Source: Fodinicola acaciae
GTDB lineage: Bacteria; Actinomycetota; Actinomycetes; Mycobacteriales; HKI-0501
Assembly (NCBI RefSeq): GCF_010993745.1
Contig: NZ_WOTN01000001.1
Location: 995,235 to 1,059,234 of the forward strand
Reading direction: 5' to 3'
Length of the DNA: 64,000 nucleotides
Positions 53,473-64,000 of this stretch are shown in pieces. The position numbers were made by a program, and so were the translations under genes. Numbering within the stretch: position 1 is the first letter of the stretch; every line of letters begins with the position of its first letter. The notes under the pieces were generated by a model. It was not told the origin of the DNA. It ran no database searches and saw nothing but the letters and a program-made list of their open reading frames with translations.

Positions 53473-53952
53473 GTGTTGAAGCGAAGGATGCTGCGTACCG
53501 TCATCGTGGTCGGCCTGGTGATCGCCACGCTGCTCGGATCGGCTTCGGTGGCGAGTGCATCGCCGACCTCGTTTTCGGCGAGAGCCGTCCACGGCGGCGG
53601 CAGCGGTGCCATCGGCGTCGCGCTCACCGGCGCTCTGTCCTGGTCGAACCGTTCGGTGGCGCTCACGTCGGTGCGGCTCTACACCGGCTCGTACGAGCAG
53701 GCCTACGTGCAGATCTTTCCGTGGAACGGAAACACGCCGGTCACCAGTGTCTATCTGCCGTCGTCCGGCGGTCTCTACAAGAACGACGCCGTCGCCGGCT
53801 GGTGGAACCTTTACACCATCCCGGTCGACGGCAGCGACTATTACGGCGGCATCACCGAAATCGAGATCCGGGTCGGTGACTACCAGCACCGGATCGTCGG
53901 AGTCGCCGTGTGCAAGCGCGCCGCGTCGTCCTGCACCAGCTATCAGGAGTGA
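53473..53952 (+). CDS. Secreted protein, unknown family
   Basis: The 159-aa protein has a signal peptide (LRTVIVVGLVIATLLGSASVASA) and a beta-rich mature part with a Tyr-rich strand (SYEQAYVQIFPWNGNTPV), GGLYKNDAVAGWWNLYTIPVDG in pieces, and CKRAASSC near the end, suggesting a C-terminal disulphide. It looks like a small beta-sandwich, but I recognise no family. GTG at 53473 follows CGAGGAG by 7 nt. It is in a 222-bp gap divergent from the Tat esterase. Confidence 0.7.
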   Translation: MLKRRMLRTVIVVGLVIATLLGSASVASASPTSFSARAVHGGGSGAIGVALTGALSWSNRSVALTSVRLYTGSYEQAYVQIFPWNGNTPVTSVYLPSSGGLYKNDAVAGWWNLYTIPVDGSDYYGGITEIEIRVGDYQHRIVGVAVCKRAASSCTSYQE

Positions 53953-62136: not shown

Positions 62137-62985
62137 TCAGTCCGGCTCCGGCAGGTCCACCGCCGCCAGCCTGGCCGGGTCGGTCAGGATCGAGATCTCG
62201 GTGATCAGTCCGTCGACGACCGTATAAGCGGTGATGCCGAGCGGCGACTTCTCGTCGTCCCAGGTGACCAGGCCGGGGCGGCCGTTGACGAGTGCGGTCC
62301 GCCAGAAGCCGATCGTGCCGGTGCGTACCCGCTGCGCTCCGGTCGCGACCTTGGTGGCGCCGATCACCACGTACGTGCCGTCGGCGCTCTCTGCGGTCAG
62401 CTTCACGTCAGGATGCAGGACACGCAGCAGTCCGTCGAAGTCTCCGTCGCGAGCTGCGGTCAGGAACGCCTGCACGACCGCGCGCTGCTCCGGACCGCTT
62501 GCCGGCGGCTCGGTCGCCTGCACTTTCCGCCGCGCGCGGCTCGCGAGCATCTTCGTCGCGTCGGCGGATTTGCCGAGGATCTGGCCGATGTCGTCGAACG
62601 GTACGGCGAACAGGTCGTGCAGGACGAAGGCCAGCCGCTCGGTCGGCTTCAGCGACTCGAGCACGACCAGCAGCGCCAGGCCGACCGAGTCGGCGAGCTC
62701 CGCGTCCTGCTCCGGGGCGGCGCCATCGTCGACCGTCACGACGAGCTCGCCGTACGCGGCCTCCGGACGCGCCTGCCGCGACCGCAACACGTCCAGGCTG
62801 ATCCGGCCGACGACGGTCGTCAGCCAGCCGGCGAGGTTGTGGATCGTCGCGGTGTCCTGGCGGGAAAACCGCAGCCATGCCTCCTGTACGACATCCTCGG
62901 CGTCGGCGTACGAGCCGAGCATGCGATAGGCGACCGCGCGTAACCGGTCGCGCTGCGCTTCGAACACCGCCGTGCTGTCGGACAT
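62137..62985 (-). CDS. SigJ/ECF41-like sigma factor with SnoaL-type C-terminus
   Basis: The 282-aa sigma factor has region 2 (AVAYRMLGSYADAEDVVQEAWLRF in two parts), region 4 with FDDIGQILGKSADATKMLASRARRKVQ, and a C-terminal SnoaL/NTF2-like domain (AFLTAARDGDFDGLLRVLHPDVKL through EISILTDPARLAAV). The C-terminal domain regulates sigma activity in the group, in place of an anti-sigma factor. The group-typical DGGGK is not conserved. It is divergent from an AhpD-like gene, a classic neighbour, and its own promoter is one of two mirror-image sites. ATG at 62985. Confidence 0.92.
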   Translation of the reverse strand: MSDSTAVFEAQRDRLRAVAYRMLGSYADAEDVVQEAWLRFSRQDTATIHNLAGWLTTVVGRISLDVLRSRQARPEAAYGELVVTVDDGAAPEQDAELADSVGLALLVVLESLKPTERLAFVLHDLFAVPFDDIGQILGKSADATKMLASRARRKVQATEPPASGPEQRAVVQAFLTAARDGDFDGLLRVLHPDVKLTAESADGTYVVIGATKVATGAQRVRTGTIGFWRTALVNGRPGLVTWDDEKSPLGITAYTVVDGLITEISILTDPARLAAVDLPEPD

Positions 62986-62987
62986 CC

Positions 62988-63014
62988 TGTTACCTTCCTC
63001 GGTTCCGCTCCGTC
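62988..63014 (+). promoter_or_regulatory. ECF promoter for AhpD-like gene
   Basis: TGTTACC (62988-62994), a 16-bp spacer and CGTC (63011-63014) match the format known for ECF41 sigma factors (TGTCACA-N16-CGTC) and face the AhpD-like gene. The CGTC also lies in a small hairpin (63010-63016 with 63022-63028). Confidence 0.8.
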
Positions 63015-63023
63015 ATGGGTGAT

Positions 63024-63050
63024 GACGGGCCCGGAGGGGCTCAGGTAACC
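63024..63050 (-). promoter_or_regulatory. ECF promoter for the sigma factor gene
   Basis: On the minus strand, GGTTACC (63050-63044), a 16-bp spacer and CGTC (63027-63024) mirror the plus-strand promoter exactly, differing only in the first -35 base, and face the sigma gene. Confidence 0.8.
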
Positions 63051-63067
63051 GATGAAGGAGCACACCC

Positions 63068-63517
63068 ATGACAGCACGGCTGAAGGACGCGCCAAACCCT
63101 GACCTGTTCACGGCGGTGGGACACCTGCACAAGGCCATCCAGGCCGGCGGCGTCGACCCGCTCGTACTGGAGCTGGTGCACCTGCGCGCCAGCCAGATCA
63201 ACGGCTGCAGCCCATGCGTCTTCGCCGGCGTACATTCGGCGAAACAGCACGGCGAGACGGACGAGCGGCTGCACAACGTCGTCACGTGGCGCGAGACGCC
63301 CTTTTTCACCGAAGCGGAGCGTGCCGCATTGGCGCTGACGGAGGCGGCGACGCGGATCCAGGACGGTGCGCCTGGGGTCACGGATGAGATTTGGGACGCG
63401 GTGGCGGCGCACTTTGATCAGCAGCAGTTGATGGCGATTACGTTGAACATCGCGCTGACGAATTTCTTCAATCGGATCAACCGTACGACGGGGGAGCAGG
63501 CGGGTAAGACCTGGTAG
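63068..63517 (+). CDS. Carboxymuconolactone decarboxylase/AhpD-like protein
   Basis: The 149-aa protein has the AhpD core helix with LVHLRASQINGCSPCVFAGVH in parts: a CxxC pair (CSPC) followed by the conserved His three residues later, and a Glu just before. It probably reduces peroxides or thiols. ATG at 63068 follows GAAGGAG by 7 nt. It is driven by an ECF promoter and is the typical partner of SigJ/ECF41-like sigma factors. Confidence 0.92.
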   Translation: MTARLKDAPNPDLFTAVGHLHKAIQAGGVDPLVLELVHLRASQINGCSPCVFAGVHSAKQHGETDERLHNVVTWRETPFFTEAERAALALTEAATRIQDGAPGVTDEIWDAVAAHFDQQQLMAITLNIALTNFFNRINRTTGEQAGKTW

Positions 63518-63670
63518 GGACAGGTGGCGCTGCGACTTCGTTGGGGCGGAGTCGCGGCGCCGGGTGTTGCGGGTCGGGGGTGGTTGGGGCTTCTGTTTGG
63601 TGTGGTGGGGAGGTGGGTGGGTTTCTGGGGTGCGGCGGTGGTCTTCATGTTTGGTGCGTTGGGGAGGTGG

Positions 63671-63736
63671 GCGTCTCCTGGTTGGTGCGTGGGGTGGGTG
63701 GTTGCGTCTCCTGGTTGGTGCGTTGGGTGGGTGGTT
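63671..63736. repeat. 33-nt tandem repeat, two copies
   Basis: Copies at 63671-63703 and 63704-63736 are adjacent and differ at one base; each starts GCGTCTCCTGGTTGGTGCGT. Weaker partial copies precede them from about 63595. The G-runs could form G-quadruplexes. Confidence 0.8.
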
Positions 63737-63795
63737 GGGTTTTCTGTTTTGTTGCGTCAGGGGGTGGTTGGGTTTTCGCCTGCGCGGCGGGCGCT

Positions 63796-63830: not shown

Positions 63831-63932
63831 TGGCCGCCAATCGGTGTGCATGGGGGTGCGGGTGGCGGTTTCGTGCGGGGCTGGGTTTTCTGGGCTTGCT
63901 CGTTCTCCCCGTCGGCGCCCGGAGGGAACCAC

Positions 63933-64000
63933 ATTGTCGGAGGGGCCGCCGAGCTTGGGTGGGTGGTTGCGTTTGGGAGGGCGGCGGCCCCTCCGACAAT
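63933..64000. repeat. 19-bp perfect inverted repeat at window end
   Basis: Arms at 63933-63951 and 63982-64000 are exact complements (left arm starts ATTGTCGGAGGGG), with a 30-nt loop. It ends exactly at the window edge, so the full length of the right side is unknown. Probable terminator or border of the repeat element. Confidence 0.7.

Follow-up and report, generated by a model that had tools for sequence, protein, structure and literature searches.

Two divergent genes and the short region between them were analysed in a 64,000-nucleotide stretch of Fodinicola acaciae DNA (contig NZ_WOTN01000001.1, forward-strand positions 995,235 to 1,059,234); "the window" denotes this whole stretch, and coordinates refer to it. 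The minus strand encodes an extracytoplasmic function (ECF) sigma factor, the plus strand an AhpD-like protein of the carboxymuconolactone decarboxylase (CMD) family, and between them lie two copies of the sequence GTTACC-N16-CGTC, one on each strand. The features of the locus are as follows.

62137..62985, minus strand: ECF sigma factor, 282 amino acids, ECF41/SigJ-related, ATG at 62985 (profile matches and matches to solved relatives)
62548..62553, minus strand: codons of Lys145-Met146, two recognition-helix residues of sigma4.2 whose identity follows the -35 sequence (alignment)
62989..62994, plus strand: -35 GTTACC, preceded by T, of the predicted promoter directed at the AhpD-like (CMD) gene (exact match; conserved in 36 of 37 divergent sigma/CMD loci)
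62993..63000, minus strand: probable ribosome-binding site GAGGAAGG of the sigma gene, 7 nt before the ATG at 62985 (sequence)
63011..63014, plus strand: -10 CGTC of the predicted AhpD-like-directed promoter, spacer exactly 16 bp (sequence)
63015..63023, no strand: gap ATGGGTGAT of 9 bp between the facing -10s (sequence)
63024..63027, minus strand: -10 CGTC (GACG on the plus strand) of the predicted sigma-directed promoter (sequence, exact match)
63027..63042, plus strand: predicted hairpin GGGCCC-GGAG-GGGCTC in the leader of the AhpD-like mRNA (spacer self-complementarity compared with shuffles)
63044..63049, minus strand: -35 GTTACC (GGTAAC on the plus strand), preceded by G, of the predicted sigma-directed promoter (exact match, 16-bp spacer)
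63055..63060, plus strand: probable ribosome-binding site AAGGAG of the AhpD-like gene, 7 nt before the ATG at 63068 (sequence)
63068..63517, plus strand: AhpD-like CMD family protein, 149 amino acids, with a CxxC motif (CSPC), presumed target (profiles, translation)

Regions 2 and 4 of the sigma factor were recognized by PF04542 (45.5 bits, cut-off 24) and PF08281 (35.4 bits, cut-off 25.7), and a match of 59 bits to TIGR02937 (cut-off 42.9) accompanied its placement among ECF (group IV) factors. Its best solved relative was M. tuberculosis SigJ (5xe7), with which residues 5-272 were aligned by phmmer. The C-terminal part matched PF12680 (SnoaL_2) at 19.8 bits, under the cut-off of 27; a SnoaL-like extension is probably present in divergent form. 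In ECF41 as described by Wecke et al. (2012; PMC3426412), the sigma gene has CMD-type neighbours, a TGTCACA-N16-CGTC promoter and a WLPEP linker motif, to which NPDKL at the C terminus links in the inactive factor (PMC7730460). The CMD gene at 63068-63517 (PF02627, 61.4 bits, cut-off 23; TIGR00778, 40.4 bits, cut-off 27.8) is a neighbour of the kind found at ECF41 loci (COE gene: CMD, oxidoreductase or epimerase), and the promoters agree with the ECF41 form in -10 and spacer and differ from it in the -35, which is GTTACC. WLPEP was absent from the sigma2-sigma4 linker of the window sigma and present in 3 of 130 aligned sigmas, the paralogues L012-L014; NPDKL was absent near its C terminus, which has TDPARL instead, and the pattern NP[DEA]K occurred in 4 of the 130 (L012-L014 and L016 of the same genome). 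A reading made earlier from the sequence alone had linked the locus to ECF41, and this holds for the CGTC -10 and the 16-bp spacer. It does not extend to plain membership: the best NCBIfam model, SigJ PRK09636, scored 241.4 bits, under its cut-off of 271, and because WLPEP and NPDKL are missing, the motif comparison makes the factor ECF41-related, not canonical ECF41.

The two copies of GTTACC-N16-CGTC that the sequence-only reading had reported on opposite strands were confirmed as the only exact ones in the window, against 0.06 expected (mean of 100 shuffles); none of the 100 shuffles held two. They had been described as promoters facing outward. The predicted transcripts do lead to the sigma and AhpD-like genes, but the layout is face-to-face, with the -35s outside and the -10s inside (CGTC-ATGGGTGAT-GACG), and the gap at 63015..63023 forms the centre of a near-palindrome, CCGTCAT-N5-ATGACGG. 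With 9 bp separating the facing -10s, the two promoters overlap and are expected to be mutually exclusive, and each transcript would exit through the opposite promoter. ECF start sites usually lie 6-8 nt downstream of CGTC; at that distance, transcription would begin at about 63020 (plus strand) and 63017 (minus strand), in the gap or within a few bases of it, giving the two transcripts an overlap of a few bases at their 5' ends. The probable ribosome-binding site of the sigma gene, GAGGAAGG, overlaps both the -35 and the spacer of the AhpD-like-directed promoter, and this -35 also sits between that ribosome-binding site and the sigma start codon. Beyond the AhpD-like gene, repetitive G/T-rich sequence (about 63560-63760) precedes an inverted repeat seen by eye at the window end (CATTGTCGGAGGGGCCGCC... 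/ ...GGCGGCCCCTCCGACAAT, 63931-64000).

Across the whole genome (8.86 Mb), GTTACC-N16-CGTC occurred exactly 8 times and the reversed pattern 5 times; of the 6 hits outside the locus, 5 lay inside long open reading frames (ORFs) and 1 abutted an ORF end, and none was clearly upstream of a gene. The genome scan thus separated single hits, which were near background, from the paired layout, which was not: one face-to-face GTTAC pair was found in the genome and none of the reversed pattern. Chance was ruled out as the origin of the pair (2 against 0.06 expected), single GTTACC hits being near background. With one mismatch allowed, the window held 4 hits including the two exact ones, against 4.2 expected; the others were at 53740 (within ORFs) and 21145. 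The window's DoxX and hemerythrin genes, which had been put forward as further targets, gained no backing, as the window held no third exact site. DoxX-like genes do replace the AhpD-like gene as partner in a sister subclade. The form GTTACG-N16-CGTC gave 17 genomic hits against 4 for its reversed pattern. Ten of the 17 were inspected, 6 inside an ORF and 4 outside by the filter used (L178, L180, L182 and L186), two of the latter with a possible downstream ORF; going by such matches, extra targets of the GTTACG form may exist elsewhere in the genome.

Conservation of the layout was computed on the 80 best loci that a single scan of named genomes with the sigma gave, similarity to the sigma being the sole criterion. 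A CMD gene was upstream and divergent in 37 of these, and 36 of the 37 had the complete face-to-face pair with exact 16-bp spacers; the exception, L060, was without the sigma-side promoter. This retention of exact spacing supports the proposal that the sites would serve as promoters of the adjacent sigma. The gap was scanned in 394 genomes of the class, permitting 0-30 bp between the -10s. GTTAC pairs had a gap of 8 or 9 bp at 26 of 30 places and GTCAC pairs at 29 of 46 (the 17 with other gaps being counted irrespective of gene context), where 2 of 31 gap sizes gives an expectation of about 6%; the reversed pattern had matches in one genome in each of the two scans. Four GTCAC pairs (G348, G393, G386 and G173) had a common 24-bp gap, which may be a second preferred spacing.

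From the loci, 89 complete modules were extracted. A CMD partner was detected by tblastn in 50 of 66 GTTAC modules and 3 of 22 GTCAC modules. Partner genes were otherwise chosen by ORF length and GC3, a procedure that found none at a number of loci; Pfam searches of ten partners, 9 beside modules and 1 beside L111, returned DoxX_2 three times and SRPBCC-like, MFS, NAD-binding/epimerase-like, MMPL, CMD, DUF1059 and flavodoxin-fold families once each. The geometry is kept while cargo genes and sequence vary. Several loci deviated: no promoter was found at L086 and L103, nor further upstream of either; the target side was GTCACC with a 15-bp spacer at L099 and GTCACC at L051. In three mycobacterial relatives (L100, L102 and L126), a second GTTACG lies 18-19 bp outside the sigma-side -35, forming overlapping alternative sites.

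One explanation for such constancy is compact inheritance, in which the overlap arose once and both sites are still promoters, the overlap itself having no regulatory meaning. The intergenic region is short and would allow no room for change, the target-side -35 starting 0-5 bp before the chosen sigma start codon in many loci; the loci have common ancestry, with a single origin of the clade carrying Lys-Met at residues 145-146 (KM) not rejected, and the conserved gap could be partly inherited. Yet the 8-9-bp gap mostly stays while spacers, gap sequence, partners and -35 class change, it is common to both -35 classes, and in other loci the -35 begins about 30 bp before the sigma start, some starts being at least 30 bases away. 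We regard inheritance of a compact region as a possible but doubtful account of the overlap, and place a functional pair of promoters ahead of it.

The claim that the -35 had shifted from GTCACA to GTTACC was borne out, the shift extending throughout a large clade together with sigma4.2 residues 145-146. The association was computed on 130 rows with sigmas of 250-330 amino acids, leaving out L086, L103, L119, L155 and the duplicate L123; L051 was kept apart as mixed, and 30 rows were without a near promoter. Lys-Met occupied positions 145-146 in 68 of 68 GTTAC-only sigmas, and Arg-Gln (RQ), Arg-Lys (RK) or Lys-Lys (KK) in 30 of 31 GTCAC sigmas, a class in which 10 of the 31 calls fall short of a complete module and several depend on a single weak site (L011, L015 and L114). 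In complete modules with Lys-Met, the target side was GTTACC in 66 of 67 and the sigma side GTTACC or GTTACG in all 67, the two forms that the sigma-directed -35 takes in relatives. GTCACA stood on both sides in 18 of 19 modules with Arg-Gln or Arg-Lys, one having GTCACT on the target side, and both Lys-Lys modules carried GTCACC and GTCACT. RQ sigmas also showed one-sided variants (GTCACC in L114, GTCACG in L108 and GTCACT in L176), and agreement was less close outside complete modules, as in L108 and L114. The 80 similarity-drawn loci divided in the same manner: 70 with KM or KL gave 66 with GTTAC only, 2 mixed and 2 with none found, and 10 with RQ gave 7 with GTCAC, 3 with none found and none with GTTAC. 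The -10 CGTC and the 16-bp spacer were unchanged across both -35 classes.

A separate set of rows came from 23 KM/KL sigmas lacking a near promoter. In 22 of them, GTTAC(C/G)-N16-CGTC was present 402-584 bp upstream in the direction of the sigma gene, and GTCAC was found at that distance in none of the 22. Between the distant promoter and the sigma gene, 18 of the 22 had a same-direction ORF of 119-142 amino acids (L061, L063, L071-L078, L080, L084, L085, L087, L088, L091, L097 and L098); by its look we take it to be VOC/glyoxalase-like. These relatives appear to use the GTTACC/G dialect in an operon layout. In the 23rd row, L133, a face-to-face GTTAC pair had been hidden by a wrong start-codon choice.

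These results also bear on whether the palindrome CCGTCAT-N5-ATGACGG, or the GGTTACC arms, might be the operator of a dimeric transcription factor, with the likeness to promoters secondary. The centre is indeed a near-perfect inverted repeat; however, arms 61 bp apart with a variable interior suit two promoters better than a dimer site, each half matches the ECF41 promoter format with its 16-bp spacer (PMC3426412), a lone half stands upstream of 22 relatives that have no near pair, and the -35 letters track residues of the sigma helix. An operator is accordingly very improbable, and we continue with the sites as promoters.

Residues 145-146 align with sigmaE R171/S172 and sigmaW K170/T171, which make base contacts at -31/-32 and -34 in solved -35 complexes (PMC6713349), and a swap of residues 168-172 between C. 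glutamicum SigH and SigD, covering these positions, changed -35 use (PMC11588781). Most probably, to judge from the alignments, the -35 moved from GTCACA to GTTAC(C/G) through residues 145-146 (Arg/Lys-Gln/Lys to Lys-Met), the direction of change being one that we infer. In the tree, KM as one clade was not rejected (p-AU 0.491), with 2 label changes and 1 independent pair on starred branches. KM and GTTAC may go back to a single joint change, so that the association counts for little more than one event; residues 43 and 219, which also mark the clade, separate the -35 classes too. An independent KM origin in L122/L131 was considered and is unsupported, the single clade not being rejected. L111 (Nocardia colli) has a KM sigma whose own promoter is GTCACA, with GTTACC at a back-to-back divergent DoxX_2 gene, and branches next to the large KM clade (87/86, unstarred); it may represent a transitional state of the specificity shift.

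Which sigma factor reads the sites was weighed against the other candidates in the cell. The genome contained 47 matches to the window sigma, six others of them at E 1e-33 or better, and L111, a KM sigma with its own GTCACA promoter, indicates that cross-talk may occur. The seven paralogues inspected (L010-L016), on the other hand, have RQ or KK at the two positions and none has KM, the RQ paralogue L010 has GTCACA, and neighbour and promoter travel together in relatives. That another sigma factor, and not the neighbour, mainly reads the pair is improbable on this evidence, and the adjacent sigma is retained as the reader. L010, 53% identical and encoded in the same genome, has the single promoter GTCACA-N16-CGTC, and the -35 shift could keep it and the window sigma apart. 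GTTAC and GTCAC form a natural pair of ECF dialects, set apart by 1-2 bases and two helix residues and represented by paralogues in one genome, which makes the switch in specificity open to tests by point mutation.

The spacer of the sigma-directed promoter is occupied by the predicted hairpin at 63027..63042. Self-complementarity against shuffles reached z 6.2 in GTTAC sigma-side spacers (18 thinned sequences) and z -0.5 in target-side spacers (16 thinned). It was z 3.8 in sigma-side spacers of GTCAC modules (15 thinned) and z 2.0 in operon-type promoters (10 thinned); because these also exceed shuffles, the case for the stem as a feature of the leader only is weakened. Across 53 distinct sequences, the six-pair stem had 69.5% of cells paired against 65.8% in shuffles (0 of 500 as high) and 15 two-sided changes against 8.7 (4 of 500 as high), and three measures of it were non-significant, at 140 of 500 for pairs with two-sided changes, 66 of 500 for further pair types and 47 of 500 for the covariation score. 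Individually, 17 of 66 GTTAC spacers fell below p 0.05. The single-sequence fold of the window leader gave a 6-bp stem with z -0.16, no better than shuffles, and an Rfam search over 62900-63200 returned nothing above gathering score, one snoRNA hit reaching 17.1 bits against 38. A hairpin in the leader of the target mRNA is likely, going by the spacer statistics.

Overall, the locus is best explained as a whole by an overlapping face-to-face pair of promoters that is read by the adjacent KM-clade sigma under single occupancy and is self-limiting, an explanation that we hold to be rather probable. The sigma factor would read both promoters of 62989-63049 (61 bp), one directing its own gene, in autoactivation, and the other the AhpD-like CxxC protein, the most evident target. 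With the -10s 8-9 bp apart, both open complexes would need the same DNA, so that the element would have room for a single polymerase and initiation at either promoter would block the other. Such single occupancy would set the ratio of sigma to target and, in our model, cap the self-amplification of the sigma, in a lineage without the two motifs, one in the linker and one near the C terminus, that keep canonical ECF41 factors inactive. The symmetrical switching-on of sigma and target first pictured for this locus is corrected by the overlapping face-to-face layout: the geometry suggests one common melting region, from which exclusion is expected. As a testable case, the conserved overlap would represent self-limiting autoactivation without an anti-sigma factor.

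A wider proposal can be advanced only tentatively. It holds that control has passed to the DNA itself: a rigid pair with a gap of 8-9 bp, self-activation always in competition with the target, a ratio tuned by the hairpin, a transferable cassette of exchangeable cargo and two -35 dialects set by helix residues. In the one other genome of the same genus that was searched (74% complete), the sigma match was partial at 56%, and the two other genomes of the family had no sigma match at E 1e-60. Relatives of 69-73% identity were spread over several families, and in the tree the window sigma grouped with a genome of family f20, not with its own family f1 (92/91, unstarred). The cassette may have been acquired horizontally.

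Among known systems, canonical ECF41 factors and M. tuberculosis SigJ resemble the window locus in sigma2-sigma4 regions, an AhpD-like CMD neighbour, the CGTC -10 and the 16-bp spacer, and probably in a SnoaL-like C-terminal part. Unlike canonical ECF41, the window locus has GTTACC in place of TGTCACA, neither WLPEP nor NPDKL, and overlapping face-to-face promoters. At divergent ECF41 loci, both genes often carry the promoter motif (55 loci, 36 with an ECF promoter and 41 with a COE promoter; PMC3426412), and ECF294, ECF295 and ECF205 are given as other SnoaL groups in the newer classification (PMC7730460, PMC8999054). A sample of WLPEP loci was obtained with an L013-based search of 197 genomes, from whose longer match list 30 loci, L013 included, were returned. 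The motif was encoded in all 30, and 13 were divergent to a CMD gene. None of the 30 had a face-to-face pair (gap 0-30, looser pattern), a contrast weaker than the count suggests because 13 of the 30 had no promoter to the pattern and only 4 (L206, L210, L217 and L223) had both visible, with the -35s back to back. L013 itself (C1:1092643-1093482), a SnoaL-type factor with WLPEP about 34 kb from the window locus, has a divergent CMD gene and no face-to-face pair. WLPEP was found in none of the sigmas beside aligned modules. In this sample, face-to-face overlap coincides with the missing self-inhibition motif, a pattern suggesting that competition between the promoters may have assumed some of the restraint.

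A likeness was also seen with related WLPEP-less GTCACA sigmas (including L106, L118, L156-L163, L165-L169 and L010), whose 22 complete GTCAC modules have the same face-to-face geometry and 8 or 9 bp between the -10s; they differ from the window sigma in RQ, RK or KK against KM at 145-146 and in GTCAC against GTTAC. The ECF residue-to-base code of Todor et al. (2020, as presented in PMC8103513 and PMC11588781) ties the same helix positions to -35 preference; the KM-GTTAC pairing is unnamed in the available passages of those two papers and may well be in the data set. No paper treating ECF41 together with GTTACC was found in the literature searched. Nor, in that literature, was any paper on GTTACC and extracytoplasmic function promoters about a GTTACC-N16-CGTC promoter by its title. 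Bidirectional bacterial promoters with a common -10 region also send out opposed transcripts from one melting region. In contrast to these, the window pair is made up of two separate and complete ECF promoters, with conserved outer -35s and a preferred gap between them.
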